A DNA stretch of 64,000 bases from Ectocarpus siliculosus (Eukaryota > Sar > Phaeophyceae > Ectocarpales > Ectocarpaceae). The position numbers were made by a program, and so were the translations under genes. The stretch lies in NCBI GenBank assembly GCA_000310025.1, contig FN649743.1, positions 4,525,579 to 4,589,578 of the forward strand. Reading direction: 5' to 3'. The notes beneath the pieces are model-generated. The model did not search any database. It was not told the origin of the DNA and saw only the letters and a program-made list of their open reading frames with translations. Shown piece by piece: positions 1 to 64,000 of this stretch (positions are counted from its first letter, which is position 1; each line of letters starts with the position of its first letter).

Positions 1-79
1 CCGACGCCCTCCTGTTGCGCTACGTTTCTCCCGCCTCCGTCAACTGCCTCTATGAAGCTTGGACCATCTTTGCGGGAAC

Positions 80-2705
80 ATGAAGTTTGCTCTTCGTGTG
101 GGGCTGCACCGCAACGTGCTGTGCCATGCGCACGGTACCGACGCGAGCCTGAAGGCCGCGCTCTTCTCGGTACTCTCTCGACCTGGCGACGACTACACGC
201 AGGTGCGTTGACCAATCGGCGAATTGCGTTTCCTCACGGGCCGAACACGGTAGCACATTCAAGGAGAACAACGTTGTACCCAAGCGCAACTTTCACGGCA
301 GTTTCCCAGAGGAGATACCCCCGCCACTCTCGCTGTCCTGGCTGGCTACGTCCTTTCGCTCAAGTGCCCCCCAACAACCGCGTGCACCCATCCGGAGCCC
401 TGTCCTTTCTTGTGTGCCAGGTTTTGGTCGTCGCGCGGAGTTTTCAAGACGAGTGTGATCTCTCTGTGATTTTCCACAAGTTCGCCGCGCTTACCGACAC
501 ACCCATGACGGTGAGTGTCTCAAATTGTCGGCACTACCACAAAGGATGGATTCGTAGTTCGCAACTAACCTATTATGAATGCAGAAAGTACGTCACGGGA
601 ACGGCTCGGCGCTTCCTCATGATTCCAAGCGCTTTGACATGGTCACGTTGGTTGTTTATTTTGTCTGTGGGCGTGGGTAGCACTTCGTCGCCGGAAGATG
701 CGCTGCTGTTCTTACCCCCCCGACAATAATCACGTGCGGTGGACATGGTGACAGGTTTCCATGGCGCTCCATTCCGACTGGCAAAAAGAGGTGCGAGCGC
801 AGGTGGTCATCGGCACTGCCTCGACCCTGTCCATCCTTCTGGACAGAGGCGTCCTCGACACGTCCAACGTGACAGCTTTCGCGGTTGACCTCGGCAATGA
901 CGACTCGTCGGTAAGAGTTCTACAGCAGCATCAGGGCCGAGACCAATAACCATGCGTTGTTTGGCATTTTCTGTATTTTTTGGCATGCTTTCGGGGCCGC
1001 GGGGGCATGGGGAAGAGCTGCAATACTCAGGAAGGCGTAGGCTGTTCGGTATTCTCGGGTTGCACCGACGTGCTTTCTGTGAACGTACCTGGCTGACAGA
1101 GAATTTTCTTTGCTGGAAAGAACCCACCAGGCGGAACCAAGAGGAATGCTTGCGTTCTGCGAAACTACGAAATCATCCCGGTGGGAGCCGGCAAGTTGTT
1201 GCTAGCAGAGAGACATTTCGGGCACCAACAGAGTATATGCAGGATACACCACGCACCCCACACCCCCGGCTGCAACTAGGCCAGAACCGCTTTCGCCCCG
1301 AAGGCTAGGAATCGAGCAGTGTCACAGCACAGGAACAGCAGCTACGGCACCAATCTTGATGACTGTCAGTACAAAAGCCGCGGGTTGTTGTTGTTGTTTT
1401 GTTGTTGTTTTTCTCACATTAGCTCTATAGTCCACAACAATGGGGAGCCCGTGGTCGCAAAACCCGGCACATACGACGCCGTGGGGAAACAAAACATTAA
1501 TAGAGTACAAACCACTCTGAAAAAGAAACCAAAATGATAGAAAGAAAAGAACAGCTACCGCACCGACCAGTCAAGAAAAGGAGCCCTAGGAATGTGTGTT
1601 TGCACCGATGGGTAGGCGGTAAAGGGGAACTTACAAACGCTGTTCCGGGGCTTACATGATGTAGGGGGCACAAGTCTCGCATTTCCACTAGGTACGGGAC
1701 TTACCGCGTGGTCAACGCAACGTTTTCCCTACCTTGTACCACGCTTTGGGGGGAGAAAGGGTTGATCAGTTGTTGAGGGGACATCCTCGGCCCTTTAGAT
1801 GGACCCTTTCTCTCTCGATACGTGTGTGGCACCTGTCACTGTTTATGATTCGCGTGGCACGGAAATACGTTAGCCTTCGAGAGAGCATTCTACATCACGA
1901 GCAATTCCCAGCCCCGCCGATCATAACGTAAGCAGCAAGCACAGTTGAACAGCTTGACGGTGCCCCACCGACCAGCTGACGAAGTTGTCGGGAGACGAGT
2001 TAACGCAACATCGGCAGTTGAAAAAATCGCGCAACGCATGCGTGCATGCTGCCGTGCCCTACCCGACACCTCTATCCTAGTTCTGCCAGAAGAAGCACAT
2101 GGCGATCATCGAAGGACCCTGCCTGTCCATCAAGCGCATGCTGCCTGGAACGTGTCAGTCAATGGTATTTGCTGGCGGCTATTACAGGTTTGAAGAAGAT
2201 GGAACGCTACCGTGACAGCTTGTCACCGCGCGCGACGTTGAGAGTGTACGCATCGCTTGCGAGTCGGGTTGCCCTTCGATGTTCAAGTTCCCATGACGAA
2301 GTACTCTTGACAGTGTGACCACGATAGCCGCCTTTGGGGTGGAGGTTGGAGGTCACACCAAATGTAATCACACGAACTTGTCGATATTCGTATTTCTGGC
2401 AATTTTTCTCGCGTTTCCAGCCTCCTTCGAGTGGAAGACACTGCATCCCCCCGTTTGTGCCATCCCATCGATCTTGATTATGGGCAATGATGGACAGCCC
2501 ACAAGCCTTGGTCTAGCCGGCTTAGCATACGGCAGCGATTGGCCCCCTTCTTACCCGCTCTTCCGTTCCCGTGCCGGTTCACCGTCATGCCTCTGACACC
2601 GTCTACACTCGTCCTTGGCATCCCGGCAGGGGGGTCAACCACTTTGCGACCGGACTCGCGCCCTCACCTAGCGTGTTTCGGAGCCTCAACCTCAACGCCA
2701 GGCCG
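80..2705 (+). pseudogene. Decayed DBP5/DDX19-like DEAD-box RNA helicase, N-terminal part
   Basis: Five exons in compatible phase are visible: about 80-202, 421-510, 755-910, 2090-2187 and 2630-2705. In order they resemble the first RecA-like domain of DBP5/DDX19 mRNA-export helicases: the RN(V/L) stretch before motif I, the LVxA stretch of motif Ia, a QVVIGTxxTL segment before motif II, a SIKRMLPxxCQ segment before motif III, and a FAxxLAPSPS segment after it. Catalytic motifs are lost. Motif I reads AHGTDASLK instead of a GKT loop, DEAD is replaced by DLGND, and SAT by AGG. Such a protein should not bind or hydrolyse ATP. Splice sites and reading frames are still intact, so it may be a recent pseudogene or an expressed non-catalytic derivative. 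The 5' start is not visible; exon 1 probably begins upstream of 80. Phase runs on into the ORF starting at 3018. Family assignment is by eye. Confidence 0.55.
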
Positions 2706-3017
2706 GTAGGTCCCGTCACCCTGAAGCCGATGCAACGGATAGGGTTCGTACTCATGCAGTTTGTCGGCTCAATGCTCCATTCTCCTGCAACAACCACGCC
2801 TTCCAATGTGTGGGTCTAGCTGCAAACAACGTAAACAACGGCGAACGCCTAACCAGAATTGGTACGCAGCCTCGACATGTACCTCATCGTTTGAACGTGC
2901 GGTACGCATCAATGTTTCGAGTACGCGTTACGCCTAGCGTAGGCGTTCCAAACCACCCTGGGTTACACTGTTGCATTGCCTTGGCACCACATCGTCAGGA
3001 ATCATGAGTCGGGAAAG

Positions 3018-4909
3018 GTATCACAGCTTTGTGAGCAAGAAAGGTATATTGCTGTTGGAGTATTACCCCCTCCAAACAAACCTCTGCAAATTTCGTGTGT
3101 GCTCTTCGCTGACCAGCTCCAAGAGGAACGCTGCTCGTCAGCGAGGGCCCTCTTCTCAGTGTGGGCCTTCACGGCTCTCTGCTACGCAGGATACTGGGTG
3201 CTGCCCCTGACCTTCCCTTCCTTCACCTCCTCCGCCACCGCCTTCCTCTGGGAACTCTTCGCTGCACTCGGTCGCGTCGCAGTGTCGACGGCGGGGCTCG
3301 TCGCCACCCTTTTGTGTGGGCTGTCTGCCTTGCTCGTCCACGCGACGACCGTCATCCTGGCGCTTCCCTACTTCACTGCCGGTCTCCTGGCGGCGATGGT
3401 GGGGCTCGTGGGCAACCTTCTGCGTGGGCTGTTTACCTCGCTCGTTCATCCGTCGACCATCATCCGGATGTTCTCCTCCTTCGTTGGCGGCCTCCCGGCG
3501 GCAACGGCGGGGGTCGTCGCCACCCTTTGGTGTGTGCTGTCTGCCGTGGTCGTTCACGTGATGACGATCATCCGGGTGCTTTCCCCTTACGCCGGCGGTC
3601 TCGCGGCGGCGACGACGGAGGTGGTGATGATCCTGTCCCAAGCGCTGTTCGCCGTGGTTGTTCCAGCCACTGCCACAGTGATCCGTGGGCTGTCCGTCTG
3701 TGCCTGCGGCCTCGTGGGGTTGCTGAGGATCATCGTCAGCCTGTGGTCGGAGCTGGCCATCACCACCATGGCCGGCAGACTGCTGTGGATCCTGGGGCGG
3801 CAAGAGCAGATACTTTCGACACCGGCCACAGCGACCTTGGCTGTGGCTTCTCCCCGGGCGGCAAGCGACGCCACCAACAACACCAACGCCTGTGTGCCGA
3901 AGGAAAAGGTGGACGGGAGTGCGGCAAGCGACGCCACCGACGCCTGTGTGCCGAAGGGAATGGTGGACGGGAGTGCGGCAAGCGACATCACCAACGCCTG
4001 TGTGCCGAAGGGAAAGGTGGACGGGCGTGCGGCAAGCGACATCACCAACGCCTGTGTGCCGATGGGAGAGGTGGACGGGAGTGCGGCAAGCGACATCACC
4101 GACGCCTGTGTGCCGATGGGAAAGGTGGACGGGAGTGCGGCAAGCGACACCAACGCCTGTGTGCCGATGGGAAAGGTGGACGGGAGTGCGGCAAGCGCCA
4201 TCACCAACGCCTGTGTGCCGATGGGAGAGGTGGACGGGAGTGCGGCAAGCGACATCACCAACGCCTGTGTGCCGAAGGGAAAGGTGGACGGGAGTGCGGC
4301 AAGCGACGCCACCAACGCCTGTGTGCCGAAGGGAAAGGTGGACGGGAGTGCGCAAGCGACGCCACCAACGCCTGTGTGCCGAAGGGGGAGGTGGACGGGA
4401 GTGCGGCAGGCGACGCCACCACCGCCTGTGTGACGAAGGGAAAGGTGGACGGGAGTGCGGCAAGCGATATCACCAACGCCTGTGTGCCGATGGGAAAGGT
4501 GGACGGGAGTGCGGCAAGCGATATCACCGACGCCTGTGTGCCGAAGGGAATGGTGGACGGGAGTGCGGCAAGCGCCATCACCAACGCCTGTGTGCCGATG
4601 GGAATGGTGGATGGGAGTGCGGCAAGCGATATCACCGACGCCTGTATGCCGAAGGGAATGGTGGACGGGAGTAGTGCGGCAAGCGACACCAACGCCTGTG
4701 TGCCGAAGGGAGAGGTGGACGGGAGTGCGGCAAGCGACACCACCGCCTGTATGCCGAAGGGAATGGTGGACGGCAGTGGAGCACCGGCCAGTGGCTCAGC
4801 TCTGCCAGGCCCTGGAAGCGCCTTCCTCGCCGATAATTCGCCCCCTCCTCTCTGCAATGTGCGCCCCCATTGGCCCCACAACCGAGCGTCAAGCCGCAGG
4901 GGAGGGTGA
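3018..4909 (+). CDS. Multi-pass membrane protein with nested 36- and 18-residue repeats (frameshifted)
   Basis: An exon opens after the AG at 3016-3017 in phase 0, the phase left by the helicase exon ending at 2705. Its first about 50 residues contain CVLFADQLQEERCSSARAL, which faintly resembles the IIFC region of helicase domain 2. From 3200 the protein is strongly hydrophobic with four 36-residue units (3294, 3402, 3510, 3618; exact 108-bp period), probably membrane-spanning. From 3858 come seventeen units of about 18 residues of the type AASDITNACVPKGKVDGS, each with one Cys. Unit 10 (4350-4402) is 53 bp long, so the frame shifts by one base. Before it the frame is that of 3018; after it the other frame carries the same repeat to a stop at 4909. 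I know of no family for this protein. It may be one gene with the helicase exons. The open antisense frames come from the stop-free repeat. Confidence 0.5.
3294..3725 (+). repeat. Four 108-bp coding repeats (36 aa, hydrophobic)
   Basis: Units begin at 3294, 3402, 3510 and 3618 with an exact 108-bp period. They encode hydrophobic segments alternating Leu/Val/Ala stretches with a short polar turn. The third-base and residue divergence between units is much larger than in the downstream 54-bp array, so this array looks older. The period is exactly twice 54 bp. Confidence 0.75.
3858..4777 (+). repeat. Coding minisatellite, 17 units of about 54 bp
   Basis: Units start at GCGGCAAGC and encode an 18-residue motif. 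Twelve units are 54 bp, three are 51, one 57 and one 63; all these are multiples of three. Unit 10 is 53 bp because one G is missing from GTGCGGCAAG near 4351. All six frames are largely open, because the unit contains no stop on either strand and its length is divisible by three. Confidence 0.9.
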
Positions 4910-5490
4910 AAACCAGCAGCACCCAGACTGCCCCGAATGTGTGCGTCTGCCTGGATGTGGTAGCACAGCCGATCTCCAAGCCGCAGCGGAGCCTCGCCGC
5001 CAGCAGCGCGCAGACACCAACCGCTCCCTGGGTATCGGCTCGCGTGCCCAGGTCTGAAAACGTGTACGTCTGACTGGTTGTTCTCAATGATCCATATCTT
5101 TCATGCCCAAGAAAATATCTGACGGAAGGCGTTTGACAGGATGCATGGTGTAGTTTCCTGAGATTGCGACAGGACGCAAAACTGGGCGTGCACGAGGTCT
5201 GTGGCGAATTATGTCCCGTGATGAAATCATTCCGTTGACACGAAAAATATTTGGGGCTCTCTTGATTACAATCTGGTATTGCTCGGGCTCTTCCGGTACC
5301 CTGTTTGTGCCATGGGTTCAGCGAAAGAAGGAATACGCGGGATGCGCCATTTGGGAGTTTGCGTGGCGTACAATGAACGACCAGGTCTTCCTTAGAGGAT
5401 CGTACTGACTCCCCTTCGCTTCCTCTTAACCTCTCCCCCCCGGGTTCGAACTTGGTTGATTCATCGCTGGAACTCGTCTCTCTACGTCAG
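4910..5490. other. Spacer with no clear gene
   Basis: Just after the stop at 4909, another frame stays open to 5057 with two similar Pro-Gln-Ser/Thr-rich blocks. It may be the real C-terminus of the repeat protein after a second indel or an unrecognised splice. From 5058 to 5490 I see no gene. Upstream exons of the protease starting at 5491 may lie here, but none could be supported. Confidence 0.4.
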
Positions 5491-8400
5491 GGGAATCACC
5501 AACCGCAGCGAGACCGTTTGCTACAACCGGTGCTTCTTAAACTCGGTTGTGCAACTGCTGAGGGTCTCCCCCGGCCTCGTGAGCCTGCTGCTGCGAGAGG
5601 CGAAGGTTGGGCCTGCCGGTACGTGCCTTCCCCTGTGTGCGCCCACGTTTGACGATGATTGACGTATTCGTGCACGTTGTCCCCAACTGATGTGGAACAA
5701 TAGCCCAGACGATCATTTGGAAACCATTGCGCGGCACAAGAAGTACGTGTCCATGCTTCGCGTCCAGCGAGCGTGGAGGCACACCTGGGCGTGACCCGTC
5801 ACAGGAAGTTTACCCAAGACGCCACCTTCTCTCTTACGTTCTAGGTGCTGTTGGTGTTGTGGCCGTCGTCGTCATCGTTGCACTCGGTTTCCCGCAACGC
5901 CTCGTCGTCGAGTTTCTTTGCCGTGCAGCCTGCACAAGTTGCCTACTTCAGTTGGGCTGATAAATTGGTCGTCTTGAAACCCATGTTGTCGATGGCCCGG
6001 ACAACAGCTTAAACAATACGGCGAGCGAGGGAATAGTTTCTTTCCATTCTCCCGATGGTTGATTGGTAAACATTGATCGAATCCCCTCGTGGTTGCAATG
6101 AATCGTGACGCAGCACGGCTGCTGGAGGGAGGGCGCTTGTGGAGCGACCCCGCCCCTCGAACGTTGGAGGAGCTCCAAAACGACCTCCTCTACCAGCTGG
6201 CAATGGTTCTGAAGGCGGGCCCAAGGCGGGTAGTCGCGTGGTACGAGATAATATGTGATCTACTAGATGCTTGAAGATGTTGTTGGACTATGAGGGATCG
6301 CCAGACAGCGTGGTTCCTAACGCCAATGGTATGCAGGCTTGGGTGGTGGCGGCGGAGCGAGTCCTTGCAATAGCAGAGCCAGCATGCAAATTTCCACTTG
6401 TTGCAGAACCGTTCAAAGCTGGAACAACGAAGTTTTTGCCTACCTCCGGCGGTTTCCTCTGCTCGTTGTCCTTGCCGTGCAACCACTGCAGATCTCACGA
6501 TACGCAAGGAGATCATTTCCACGTACTCCTCGACCTGTGCCATCATAACCAACGCCTTCGTAGCGTGACGGTTTGGTGCGGTTTTGTCCCGTGAACGACC
6601 GAAGATGTTCTCGGTGTTGTAAATTGTAAGACCGCCTCTATTTTCAGTTCCCACGTACTTGGAAGCCCCTGGCAACAATGCTCCGCCATCCACAGCATGC
6701 ATCTAACCGGCGCCCAATCCATACATGAGACACCTCACGTTCACGTTCACGTCATGTTTCGTTCTACATGGTTCCCGCTCGGTGGCCGCAACGGCACTGC
6801 GGGCTGGTAGCTGCTTCCACGAGCAACCCATCCCCTGTCATCGATCATCGAAGGCCAAGGGCCTGCATGCATGTCCTACGCACTTGCATCGATTCGCACC
6901 GCAAGCACATGAGTGTGGTGATGCCTCTGTTGCAGTCGAGGCGATCACTAGACAGCATCGGAAGTTAGGAATGTAACCAGCGGCTGTCCTCCCACCCCCA
7001 CCTATCGCCCGAACGAACGCCTGCCCCGAATACGAACAGTCCATGGAGGTGGGAGGGACCGAGCCCACTGCCATGAAAAAGCTCGATCTCGCGACGCGGA
7101 CTCTTCTTGCGGGGAGAGACAGGGCGGGTATTTAGGTCTGCCGTATGGCGTGATAGCGCCCGAGCGTTGTCGTAACGGTAGGGTCGTTGTGAAGCCAGTG
7201 ATAACTTCTTCGCGTCTTACCTTCGCCACCGAACGAATATCCGACTTGGGGTAATCGCAGGGTACTGTCGAACGATTCTCCTTGAGGTCTCCCAACTTTC
7301 CTAAACGTTTCCACGTAGTGGGTCGCTCTCGACTGGAACTCTACTCTTGTCACGAGCAATTATAATAGTCCGCCCCGCAACCTTGACTCGACTTCACGGC
7401 ATTTTCCTCGAACCATAGTACTACTAGAGGCCACTATCAGCCGGCTCCCCCCGGTCTGATTCAGCGTGATTTTCACTCCAGGCCTCGCCTTCTGCGCATA
7501 CCGCTACGCGATTTTTGTGACCAACAGGGAGTCAAATTGAGGCGACAAGAGGATGCCGTCGAGACACTCCAGGTATTCGTCGAGGCGATATTCTCCGTCT
7601 TCGAGCCGGAGGTAACAACGCCCGCCGTGATGATGGCAACAGAGTACAGCAGGTTCAGTAGCTCTTCGACCCTTCCTGCAGAAGATTGCAACGGCACTGA
7701 TCGGAAAGGATTCGCCGCCCTTGCTTTTTCGAGCGGATAGTCCAAGTGTTGTCGCCTTGTGTGAATGGGGCGCTCCTCGACATTGAGAATTACTCCAGAC
7801 ACTTGAGTGCGGCGAGTGCAGCGAAACACGCAGCACCACCGGTTAAACGGTAGAATGCTGCAGTTGCAAGGTACCCATTGCTTCACACGGCTTGCATGTA
7901 GGCACAGTCGAACTTCGGGTAAGTACACAACTGTTACTTGCTACAGAAATAATTTCCCTAAGAAGGGGAAATGTCCATACGTTTGATACTCCCCCTTATG
8001 TTGTACATTATGTGGGCCACCATGCCTGTGAAAAAGGGAGTTTCCTTAATATTGGTGTCCTCATGCGAGGCACGACTGACTGTAATTGGTGCCACGAACA
8101 AGAGCAAATGCTGCCTGTTGTTTTCAGGAGATCTCCTTCATGGACTGTGGTGACTTCGTCCACGCCGGCTGCCACAACGACGGCTGCAACCCCGTGAGTG
8201 GTTACCGTTGGAAGTGGTGTTGCCATATTGTCGTTATCCTCTTTTCGTTCCGATAAGTGTTACCACTGCGACGTACAAGTCGGGCGCGGAACGTGGTGAC
8301 CACAGGTACCCAATCACCCGCATTTCTGTACAGCAACAGTCGAGGTAGGGTGCCTTCGGCATGTTCAGACCCTTGCAGCACGCGCCCTCAAAATGAATCG

Positions 8401-43100: not shown

Positions 43101-45806
43101 GGCGCTGTAGGTTAGCGCGTCGGCCTCGACGCCCGCCTCGGACATCTCCCGCAGCAGCCTTTTTGCAGGTGTAGAGGTCGGGGGGGCGGGGCAGGGAGGG
43201 AGTTCGATAGGGTACCGAAGAAAATGCAAGTCACGTGTATTACAGCAGTAGCGCATCGGTTGAGGAGGTTTGATTGGTCACATGTTGAGAACTGTACTGT
43301 GCGGTGGGTCGGACGGCGGGAGAAGCTAAGCATTGGCTGCAACAGAAGCAGAGGTGAAAAAATGGCCTATATGTATACATGGGTGCCCCTACGAACCTCA
43401 AGGCCTGCTCCCACTGCCCGTTGTTCCCGCACGCGGTAATCGTCGCCGCGTAGACGTAGTTGTTTACGGCCCCCCGCCGGCCCCTCGGCCCCCCCGCCGC
43501 CCCCGCTCCTCCCGGAGTACCGCGCTCGGCGTCGTCGTCTCTCCGATCCCGCCTGATGCGGTCAAGCAGAGCTACCGCTTCTTCCCAGAGCCCGCACTGC
43601 CCGGCCACGGTTATGGCGGTGCTGTAGCTGGTGGGCGTGTGCTGGATGCCCTTCCGGGGCATCTGGTCGAAGAGAGCTAGGGCCTCGGCCCAGTCTGCCG
43701 TCCGGGGGCTAGGCGGGGCAGCCGCCGCCGCCGCCGCCGGCCGCTGCCTCCCGGCGGCGCTAGCAGATGCGGAAGCGCTAGCGGCGGCGGCGCTATTAGC
43801 AGAGGCGCTAGCAGCGGCGGCGCTAGCAGCGGCGCTGGAGGACGCCACCTTCGCGGCGGCCGCGTTCCCGTGCGCGGCGATCATGGCGTGGTAGGTGATG
43901 GCGTTCGGCTCCACGCCGGCCTCCTCCATCTCCCGCCAGACCTGCCTCGCCTCCGACGTGCGGCCGTTCTCGCCCAGCGCGGCCACGAGGGTGGTGTAGG
44001 TCACGACGTCGGGGGCGGCGATAACGCACCCACATTCTCCCTCGCCGGAGGCCTGACCCGCCAGGCCCTGCAGCTCCCGAAACACTTCCATGCTCTCCCG
44101 CCACTTCCCCGACATCCCGAGGGCGCGCATCGTGGCCCCGTACGTGCCGACCGTCGGCCGTAGCGGAACCCTCCCGCCGGGCACCACCGCTCCCGCTCTC
44201 CCCGCTGCGTCTAGCTCTCGCAGCAGGCCCAGGGCCTTCTGCCACTGCTTGCCGGAACCGCACGCGGCGATGCAGATGTTGTAGCTGATCTCGTTGACCT
44301 CCAGCCCTGCGCCCTTGGCTCGCTCGAGGAGACCGAGGCACCGCTTCCACTCCCCCGCGGCCGTGCAGGCTTCCAGGGTAGCGTTTAGGCAGAAGGAGTT
44401 CGGGGTGACGCCGCGGGCCCACATCCTCTCGAAGACGGCCAGAGCCTCGCGCCACCGGGAGCACTTCGCCAGGTGCATGAGGCAGCTGTTGTACGCGTGG
44501 CTGCTGACTCTGCCGTCGCTGCCGCCCGTCGTTCCCTTCTCCGCCTGAAGAGTCATGTCGCACGTGTGTGTTCGTGTGTGTTCGTGTGTGTGCGTTTGAA
44601 TGAGCATCGACCGAGCTAGCCCGCTGACCAAACAAAAGACGTCAGCCTCACTGGGGCCAATAACAAAAAACGCTCCTGAAGGCCATGATCTGGGACCCTG
44701 TGATCGATCGTCATGGGAAAGTCTACGCTAATCTCCGGACAAAAGACAGCTTGCTACCGTGTGCGTGTGCGCGCGCGTTTGAAAAAGCATTGACCGTGCT
44801 AGCCGGCTGACCAATGAAAAGACGTCAGCCTCAGTGCGGCCAAAAACCAAAACGATTCTGAAGGCCATGAGCTGGGACCCCGTGATGTGTTTGTGTGTGT
44901 CATTATTATTAGCATCGACCGCACTAATCGGCTGACCAATGAAAAGACGTCAGTCTCAGCGGTTGAAACACAAAACACTTCTAAATGCCATTATCTGGGA
45001 CACCGTGAGGGGGCGGCATGGGGGAGGCTAAGCTATTCTACGGATGAAAGACATAAACGGTAGCAACAGCAGACCACGTGTCTACCAAGGCTGCTACATT
45101 GCACTCGCGTTCTTTTTGGAGTGCTGCGTGTGCATATTCCAACAAAATTGAGCTCACGGGACGGAGTGCGCTCCAACATCGCGAACCAAAATAAAAAAAA
45201 ACACGGCATGTTTCTCTGCTGTAACATCGCCAAAGACAAAAAACAACACATAAAACCGCCCCTGAAACAGTTAGCTCACGGCTCAGAAGCGGCTATCGCA
45301 GTCGTCTTTTGCAACAAAAAGTATGCGAAAAAATCTTCCGCACCGGTCAACTACTGCCTACTGGTGCCCCCCCCCCCCGTGTTGCTTCACACCGTGCCGC
45401 CAGTAGTCTTAGCGAGGCTATTAAGCTATTAAGCTATTAAGCTTGGTTGTAGTAGGGGTTACCGGTGTGGGTTGGGGGTTAGGGTCACGAAACCCCCCTC
45501 TCTATTTTATGTAGTACCTCGTAAGATATAAAAATAATATCCTCACTGTGAGGCGGTCCGTGTCGCCTCCCTCACCTCCCCAAACTTGGCCTCTGCAGTT
45601 TCCGCCTCCTCCAGCTCCCGCATCACCCCTCGCCAGTTCCACCGCGACATGCCCCTGATCTTCACCACGAAGTCTCGGGAGCGGGCGAACGCGGCCCTCC
45701 CTTTCTTGGTCCCTCTCCTCGCGCCCCTCCCCCTCCCTTCCCCGGGGCGCCGTCTGCGCACCCCCCTGCCGCCGCCGCCGCGCCCCCCTTGCCCCCCCTC
45801 TCTCAT
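40118..45806 (-). CDS. Pentatricopeptide-repeat (PPR) protein, about 17 repeats
   Basis: PPR proteins bind organelle RNA through tandem 35-residue helical repeats. Exons from the 5' end: 45806-45576, 44544-43397, 43158-42510, 42156-41957, 41338-41155 and 40291-40118. All phases agree, giving about 862 codons before the unresolved 3' end. About 17 tandem motifs read as TYxxxIxACGxxGxWxxALxLLxEMxxxGVxPN. There are long Ala/Ser-rich insertions inside the repeats near 43700-43860 and 42800-42860. The N-terminus from ATG 45806 is Arg/Gly-rich, which could be a transit peptide; mitochondrial or plastid location is inference. A start at 44631 or 44556 without the first exon is an alternative, but the first exon supplies the front half of a repeat (RDFVVKIRGMSRWNWRGVMREL). 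No E, DYW or SMR domain was seen. Introns hold LINE relics and family D repeats. Confidence 0.85.
40499..40665 (-). mobile_element. LINE C-terminal relic
   Basis: In a PPR intron. The plus strand shows GCGTCCTCGAGAGGACGGAG followed by GGCCAATCGTTCCTTCC and a CTCAAAAATG block, shared with 42240-42416. On the minus strand it aligns with the LINE C-terminus and its GACGCGTGGTCAA motif. Confidence 0.6.
41896..41953 (+). repeat. Poly(C) and CT-rich tract beside a PPR donor
   Basis: Nineteen C followed by CT and TCTG repeats abut the donor of PPR exon 42156-41957. A longer CT-rich tract lies at 40930-41150, before the donor of exon 41338-41155 in plus coordinates. Confidence 0.6.
42240..42416 (-). 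mobile_element. LINE C-terminal relic
   Basis: In the PPR intron 42157-42509. The minus strand encodes FLRHLWQGRKG, then SCGNNAPS, aligning with FLWSLWQKRKE and GRNGAPS of the LINE at 62685. It ends near AGTAGTCCACCCCC, comparable to the LINE stop and C-run. Confidence 0.65.
44603..45008 (+). repeat. Dispersed repeat family D, three direct copies
   Basis: Copies of about 100 bp start at 44603, 44787 and 44911. Each has GCAT(C/T)GACCG, CTGACCAAxxAAAAGACGTC and CTGGGACxCxGTGA in order. All lie in the first intron of the PPR gene. An inverted copy is at 39055-39160. Confidence 0.8.
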
Positions 45807-62670: not shown

Positions 62671-64000
62671 AGGGGGGGGGGGACTCATTTGTTGCTTGCC
62701 GTAGTCATTTGACCATTGACCACGCGTCCCTTTCGAGACGGAGCACCGTTCCTACCCCTACTAGAGACACCACCAACATTTGGGAGCTCTTTACGTTTCT
62801 GCCACAAACTCCATAAAAATTTCTTGCACATCTTATCCCCGTCCTCTAGGGCCTCTTGTGCCCACCATCTATCCCCAATTATCGCGATCGTTTTTTCGCT
62901 GTTGTCTAATTTACCAAACTTGTCCATGTCACACCCTCTCTGTCTCATTTCCTCCTCGAGATCCTCTCTTTCCTTCCTGTACAACTCACACTCCCCAACT
63001 ATGTGGGGTCTACTCTCCTCCGATTTGCCACATGGACATGTGTGTCTATCCTCCTCTTCCTCTCTCCTACGGCTGGTATACCTCTTCCTCCGTTCTGGCA
63101 AGTCCAGATCGCCTACTCGAAATTGGAATTTCAGCTTTTTCGCATAGTCCATGGGGCCGTCCAAGTACTTGTTCATCCCTATCCCTTCTTTCAACTTCCC
63201 GTATATCTCCAAGTGGTCTTCGCTTCGTACCTTCTTCCGAAGGGTTGTCTCCTCCCTACTCTCTAGCATCTCCTTGACTTTCGTCTTGAACCCCCCGAAC
63301 CCTTCCGTGTCCAACGTCTCCTCCTCGTCTCCTATCTCCTTCCAAACCTTCTCTACCACCTTGTCCCATCTGATTCCCTTCTTTCCTGGAGTCGCTTTTC
63401 CCCAAGCTGCCTTGTCAACCATGGCTGGTAGTCTATCGTCCGACAATCTACTTACCTTGTACTGCCAATTCAACTTCTGCATGTCTCTCTTTGTTTTAAG
63501 AGAGTACATTCCCAATTCTGCTCTCAATACAGTGTTGCTCGTTGTACTTGAACATCCTAGTATTTTCTTGGCCGCTGCCATCTGCACCGTTTCCAGCTGC
63601 TTGACGGCCTTTTCGTTACCTTCCCATATCTCTCCTGCATACTCTAGCTTAGGTACAATCACCTTCAAGAGAATACACCTCTTAATCCTAGTGTCTAGGT
63701 GTGGGTCCGTAAGGATCTCGTCCATCTTGCCTATCTGAGCTTTACCCTTCCCAATCAACTTCGCTATGTGTGCGTCCCATGAGCACTCCTTCGAAATCTC
63801 TACTCCCAGGTACGTATACTTGTCTACTACCGGTAGTTCTTCCTCCCCCCATTTCCATTTGAATTCTACGGGATTTTTCTTATCTTCGTTACAGACCACT
63901 ACTGCGCATTTTCCTACGTTCGCCGACAGTCTCCATTTTCGGGTGTATCCTACCGCCGCATCTATTTGTTCTTGCAACCCTTCTGGTGTTTCGGATACCC
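62671..64000 (-). mobile_element. Non-LTR retrotransposon (LINE), C-terminal part of the RT ORF, cut by window edge
   Basis: One open frame runs from the window edge to the stop at 62685-62687. It starts inside the reverse transcriptase fingers/palm end (KWRLSANVGKCAVVV...YTYLGVEI, typical of LINE RT after the catalytic FADD), followed by the thumb and a connector. It closes with a zinc-finger-like CPCGKSEESRPHIVGEC motif and a basic tail. No stop or frameshift interrupts the visible 430 codons, so this copy is young or active. After the TGA only two bases separate the ORF from a C-run on the element's sense strand. The catalytic RT core and any endonuclease lie beyond the window. Insertion into the PhoD gene is inferred from position. 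Confidence 0.85.

Follow-up and report, generated by a model that had tools for sequence, protein, structure and literature searches.

The window that we analysed, a stretch of 64,000 nucleotides from the brown alga Ectocarpus siliculosus (assembly GCA_000310025.1, contig FN649743.1, positions 4,525,579 to 4,589,578 of the forward strand), forms the end of a contig that we call C18. Near its start lie five exons related to the RNA helicases of the DBP5/DDX19 type, followed on the same strand by an exon with the features of a multi-pass membrane protein (Table 1). When spliced, the five exons encode an uninterrupted DBP5-type RecA domain 1 with GT/AG borders throughout, in which the catalytic motifs have been replaced. 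The same arrangement was found at three loci, referred to below as copy A (in the window), copy B and copy C, and the five frames and their splice sites are retained in all three. An intact relative of the dead helicase copies is located on another contig, C180. The original prediction for this locus, which was made from the sequence alone and proposed five exons with open frames and correct splice borders, was thus borne out in its main part, with the coordinates corrected to 58-2705.

Table 1. Coordinates of the features of copy A in the window and locations of the three copies (a slash marks a splice border)
Feature	Position	Strand	Description
Exon 1	58..202	+	Q-motif region and former motif I; AG in A, B and C
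Exon 2	421..510	+	former motif Ia: ARSFQD versus PTRELA in the intact gene
Exon 3	755..910	+	motif Ib partly retained; DEAD position altered
Exon 4	2090..2187	+	SAT position is AGG; contains the 22-residue PCLSIKRMLPGTCQSMVFAGGY, the same in A, B and C
Exon 5	2630..2705	+	end of RecA domain 1; phase 0 donor CCG/GTAGGT identical in A, B and C
Intron (predicted)	2706..3116	+	411 bases in A; includes the non-conserved acceptor 3018
Membrane exon	3117..4433	+	in frame with exon 5; hydrophobic repeats, then 18-residue repeats; frame of A stops at 4433
54-nt tandem array	3877..4778	+	16.8 copies, 91% matches
Remaining tail	4434..5073	+	out of frame in A; B reads on to a stop equivalent to 5073
Copy A	window	+	whole-genome protein search
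Copy B	C18, ~4.450 Mb	-	whole-genome protein search
Copy C	C18, ~4.389 Mb	-	whole-genome protein search

The borders of the helicase exons differ in some details from those first proposed. The gene had been taken to begin with the methionine codon at position 80; this start was rejected, since the codon is ATG in A and ATC in B and an acceptor at 57/58 is present in every copy. This acceptor (AAG/C at 57), which was picked with the comparison with the intact C180 gene in view, yields the phase of that gene. Exon 1 therefore most likely begins at 58, and the acceptor together with the ATC in B suggests that the gene starts further upstream. For exon 4, an alternative acceptor AG at 2080 is also possible. 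The donor of this exon reads AG/GTTTGA in A and AG/GTTCGG in the C180 gene, and a GTT donor follows exon 4 in the dead copies as in the C180 gene.

The similarity to DBP5 was supported by several comparisons. In a phmmer search of the PDB with copy A, yeast Dbp5 was the top match (E 7e-6), DDX19B came next, and DBP5/DDX19 chains occupied the first 13 of 16 rows, closeness being judged here by search rank and not by a tree. Small splice errors were present in the queries of the genome search, the PDB phmmer search and the Pfam search of copy A, namely three residues too many ahead of exon 4 and an incorrect pair of residues where exons 4 and 5 meet; the copy-to-copy comparisons of divergence and constraint were made with the corrected splice. 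An hhalign comparison of A, B and C with the genome's own DBP5 and yeast Dbp5 gave a probability of 97% (E 1.3e-11), and z-scores against shuffled sequences were 10.9 for A and 9.3 for C. These results confirmed the claim of a DBP5-like protein, as did the alignments the claim that motifs I, II and III are all replaced: motif I (GSGKT) is altered in A, B and C, motif II (DEAD) reads DLGN in A and B and HLGY in C, and motif III (SAT) reads AGG in all three. Motifs Q and Ia are also replaced, the former being unrecognisable, and a remnant of motif Ib is left, in which the VVGTPG of the intact gene has become VIGTAS (exon 3 stretch VVIGTAS). The longest runs identical between A and C are AQVVIGTASTLSILLDR, PCLSIKRMLPGTCQSMVFAGGY and FATGLAPSPSVFRSLNLNARP; the first two are unchanged in copy B, and one change is present in FATGLAPSPSVFRSLNLNARP.

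A check of the spliced translation against DEAD-box profiles, suggested with the original prediction, gave no PF00270 match in A or C. For copy A, Pfam returned only DUF4253 at E 0.036, below its cut-off, and for copy C it gave no match at E 0.01. The faint trace of helicase domain 2 that had been proposed at 3018 was not recovered either. Although the query included the 3018 piece, its best alignments with the 13 DBP5/DDX19 chains reach no further than residue 177 of 225, inside exon 5; nothing past exon 5 resembled RecA domain 2 in the PDB alignments, and none was seen by eye between the two parts of copy C.

The protein search of the whole genome (189 Mb, 492 contigs) revealed 15 matches, all of them on C18 and at the three loci. 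All three lie within C18 4.38-4.59 Mb, close to the end of the contig. Copies A and B make up a large inverted duplication whose arms are ~75 kb apart, with 93.6-96.5% identity over three blocks of ~15.6 kb in total. Copy C lies ~60 kb beyond, and its identity to A is strongly uneven: it amounts to 90% in the block from -4065 to -97, and the helicase part falls into two blocks of 80% and 74% identity; gene conversion may account for this. A neighbouring gene on the 5' side (L013:7294-8745, window -2585 to -1134), which encodes a hydrophobic repeat protein and has no Pfam match, is also present at all three loci. A donor-like CAG/GTGCGC shortly before its stop makes onward splicing possible.

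The C180 gene (L061, C180:23000-28929) is fragmentary and has GSGKT, PTRELA, DEAD and SAT all present, with a PF00270 match at 5.8e-32. DBP5/DDX19 chains made up the first 13 of the best 60 of its 109 PDB matches, and among the matches listed the best DBP5/DDX19 chain scored 143.4 bits versus 111.1 bits for the best eIF4A. The dead copies and the C180 gene agree in the order and phase of six exon borders (the 5' border of exon 1, the 3' donor of exon 5 and the four introns between them), and the exon lengths modulo three are 1, 0, 0, 2 and 1 in both. Because the acceptors of the dead exon 1 and of C180 exon 5 were picked by frame among nearby AGs, they are weaker evidence than the donors. The common borders and phases indicate that the dead copies arose through duplication at the DNA level and not as retrocopies, and four internal introns at intact-gene borders are not what a processed pseudogene would have. 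The C180 contig ends soon after exon 5, and two probes did not recognise a DBP5 domain 2 elsewhere in the assembly. Other candidates were discarded: by eye, the one on C2, considered as the canonical DBP5, is eIF4A-like and the one on C14 is DDX6-like; those on C16 and C8 have no DBP5-like run, and none of 20 further helicase regions was DBP5 by eye. Searches of the literature on DBP5 in brown algae and on DEAD-box pseudogenes in Ectocarpus or brown algae returned nothing relevant.

Taken together, the dead copies share with DBP5/DDX19 the order of domain 1 and the remnant of motif Ib, and their exons have the borders and phases seen in the DBP5 copy of this genome; they differ in having no GKT, DEAD, SAT or recognisable Q motif, in yielding no domain 2 and in probably being attached to a membrane protein. 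The shared characters indicate that they belong to the DBP5/DDX19 lineage by descent.

In the membrane exon, the sequence LQEERCSS is followed by hydrophobic repeats of 36 residues (108 nt), in which hydropathy alone points to five likely membrane segments in A, four in B and three in C. The 18-residue repeats follow in A and B, and the frame of C stops before any of them. The hydrophobic stretch and the 18-residue repeats had been described correctly, the latter corresponding to the 54-nt unit. The lengths of these units are multiples of three in 15 of the 16 measured in A and in 15 of 15 in B, the exception in A being a unit of 53 nt (4317-4369). The frame had been thought to reach 4909; owing to the base lost in this unit relative to B, the frame of A ends where Table 1 places it, and that of B is open for 634 codons. 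A search at E up to 0.01 placed relatives of the membrane exon (6 matches) solely at the three loci, and one scan of viral_contigs gave none.

The two parts had been joined through an acceptor at 3018, whose phase fits the donor at 2705. The fit is real in A; one base has been lost there in B, and C reads VPQLIHNKGAVP and then reaches a stop after 12 codons. The acceptor at 3117 is present in A, B and C at phase 0 and passes the pyrimidine filter, which 3018 fails. Moreover, the similarity between A and C is broken at 3029 and returns at 3114, three bases ahead of the membrane exon. The end of exon 5 and the start of the membrane exon are both phase 0 in every copy, and the order and strand of the two parts are constant. 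No start codon is common to the three membrane exons, their first methionine being residue 94 in A, 149 in B and 29 in C, and residue 149 is the first start codon common to A and B. Because of the phase, the order and the absence of a start codon common to the three exons, we infer that the two parts are fused. Splicing of the helicase part to the membrane exon via 3117, rather than 3018, is plausible but unproven, and the chimera of the original prediction stands to that extent. Copy C has ~1.07 kb extra between the two parts, which is absent from A and B.

Selective constraint on the five exons was evaluated by comparing the copies, with exon 1 taken from base 80 in the A-C counts. Between A and C, 83 of 543 exon bases differ, with no stop or frame change, and 344 of 1580 intron bases differ. 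The exons contain a single indel (6 bases) and the introns 27, of which 20 are frame-changing; scaled by length, ~5-7 frame changes would be expected in the exons by our estimate. Amino-acid changes numbered 47 versus 54.5 expected between A and C (P 0.034) and 47 versus 56.1 expected between B and C (P 0.0096), and B and C also showed a third-position excess (23, 22, 41). The ratio of nonsynonymous to synonymous change (dN/dS) over the five exons was 0.59 and 0.51 by NG86 and 0.43-0.50 by YN00 and maximum likelihood. For exons 1, 4 and 5 jointly, dN was 0.079 and dS 0.194 between A and C. A dN/dS test and a search for random stops had both been proposed as checks; between the paralogue copies the ratio was below 1 overall, with exon 2 exceeding 1, and no stop was found in the five exons of B and C. 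These comparisons lend moderate support to the view that the protein has been retained since A and C separated, with selection on its middle part relaxed (or changing). In the sense of lost catalytic motifs and a retained frame, the copies would qualify as pseudohelicases with moderate statistical support, uneven between exons.

The explanation that we tentatively prefer, with a probability of roughly 0.47, is that this locus codes for a pseudohelicase domain and that the domain is spliced to a multi-pass membrane protein bearing a tail of 18-residue repeats. A DBP5/DDX19 gene would have been duplicated in genomic DNA, introns included, and the duplicate would have lost its ATP-binding and hydrolysis motifs together with RecA domain 2. 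What remained, domain 1, would still code for protein as a pseudohelicase domain, and phase-0 sites would most likely serve to splice it to the downstream membrane protein; copying of the unit would have produced the three loci, all on C18. The product would then be a DBP5 domain that lacks catalytic activity, is anchored in a membrane and probably acts as a binding surface rather than an ATPase. The splicing to the membrane exon, expression, folding and binding function of this product are predicted from the sequence.

A number of observations weigh against this explanation, and they can be considered together with the alternatives that they bear on. The locus might instead hold two genes, which we consider somewhat doubtful: a dead DBP5 gene cut short at exon 5 or somewhere beyond it and, just downstream, a membrane repeat gene that is unrelated to it and has its own first exon. 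Two phase-0 borders meet by chance in one case out of three, and 18 ATG-to-GT stretches of phase 0 within the 2706-3116 intron of A are possible start exons. In copy C, the relic acceptor leads into a frame that stops after 12 codons, and a 147-nt stretch that resembles an exon (DIIRSYID...), with a strong acceptor and phase 0 at either end, lies between the two parts; on the two-gene explanation, the membrane gene of C would have exons upstream of it. It also weighs against the preferred explanation that no convincing exon or start codon was found upstream of exon 1, where an upstream Q-motif exon like that of the intact gene scored 29 at best versus maxima of up to 30 in 30 shuffles. However, the agreement of order, strand and phase in three copies and the lack of a start codon common to their membrane exons are not readily explained by two genes. 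In addition, A and B do without DIIRSYID, yet their membrane frame is open, as far as the repeats in A and over its whole length in B, and loss of this stretch in A and B would keep the frame, which suits a single gene.

We regard it as unlikely that the helicase part is a slowly decaying duplicated pseudogene in which stops have not yet gathered and the apparent constraint stems from regional gene conversion or chance. Further unfavourable observations bear on this question. The five-exon dN/dS is only 0.4-0.6 by three methods. Between A and C, exons 2 and 3 have a dN of 0.245 and a dS of 0.307 (dN/dS 0.67-0.80), dN exceeds dS in exon 2 alone, and these two exons differ by 20% and 23%, more than the adjoining introns 1 and 2 (8% and 14%) but not more than introns 3 and 4 (28% and 24%). 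The absence of stops has by itself a P of about 0.11-0.16, with all changes placed on one branch. The divergence of A and B is near neutral: the helicase part, with too few changes (14; P 0.18), gives no clear constraint, and the near-equal dN (0.031) and dS (0.035) in the first 251 codons of the membrane exon give no sign of recent constraint there. Decay would also accord with the sharp regional variation in A-C identity (90% in the block upstream versus 74-80% in the gene) and with two one-base losses in the tail of A relative to B, one in unit 4317-4369 and one near 4850. The open frame of the 5' neighbour is 483 codons in A versus 591 in B and C, so that A may be decaying or mis-assembled. 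Against simple decay stand the 20 frame-changing indels of the introns compared with none in the exons, the five-exon splice sites retained in three copies, amino-acid change below expectation, and array units that are multiples of three with one exception. The original proposal of a neofunctionalised chimera rather than a simple pseudogene is partly supported: the frames kept in three copies lend moderate support to the view that this is more than a simple pseudogene, and the weak constraint on exons 2-3 and the lesions in the tail of A speak against it. As overlapping open frames exist, the frame could also be due to an RNA element or to a coding sequence on another strand; this is highly improbable in view of the protein-level homology with matching exon phases and the third-position excess between B and C, and Rfam at gathering scores found nothing in the window.

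Several other features were observed in the window. At 5396-6274 (+), in a region covered by the A-B duplication, Pfam gave UCH only at E 0.1; these downstream frames resemble the start of a ubiquitin-specific protease (CFLNSVVQLL). A pentatricopeptide repeat protein gene lies at 43240-44727 (-) (PPR_2, E 3e-38). A frame of 437 codons at 62685-63998 (-), open at the contig end, has no Pfam match at E 0.01 and resembles the end of a non-LTR (long terminal repeat) retrotransposon reverse transcriptase. A short tandem array, GGGCTAGGGTTA, lies inside the contig at 27637-27684 and recalls a telomere-like repeat. In the genome as a whole, the EsV-1-7 cysteine-rich family, which is expanded in brown algae, gave 150 matches among 880 candidates scored, in keeping with a brown-algal source, and it was found in 0 of 14 prokaryote control genomes.

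If the dead domain is a binding surface, the docking of DBP5 at the nuclear pore offers one lead. DBP5 domain 1 binds NUP214 (PMC3814787), and mutants of DDX19 R261, equivalent to yeast R259, were made to abolish this binding (PMC4309436); the yeast arginine is needed for binding Nup159/Nup214. Counted from E240 of the DEAD box, residue R259 of yeast falls in VKRFLP, where it is the only R. The corresponding segment (KR-LP) is IKRMLP in the dead copies, with the arginine retained, and it lies in PCLSIKRMLPGTCQSMVFAGGY, the longest run that A, B and C share without change. On the other hand, serine stands in the dead copies in place of the yeast arginine three residues earlier, and CIQIKNRYLP in the intact C180 gene has no clear match at either arginine place. 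We rate as improbable the proposal that the protein might be a membrane-anchored decoy of the mRNA export helicase, occupying the Nup159/Nup214 docking site or a related one and tuning mRNA export.

Should the preferred explanation of a coding pseudohelicase domain joined to a membrane protein be true, the dead domain would reveal the surfaces of DBP5 that are important in the absence of ATP hydrolysis and would be a clear case of the reuse of a housekeeping enzyme, and the presence of intact and dead copies within one genome would make this directly testable. Confirmed pseudohelicases are few, and the abstract of PMC9539457 calls Utp25 the first fully validated one. According to this paper, Utp25/Def is likewise a DEAD-box relic that has lost the DEAD sequence and is still kept as a protein, and it has both RecA domains and is an essential part of the small subunit processome. 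Unlike Utp25 as described there, the dead DBP5 paralogues of E. siliculosus, known from sequence alone, have domain 1 by itself and lie next to a membrane exon.

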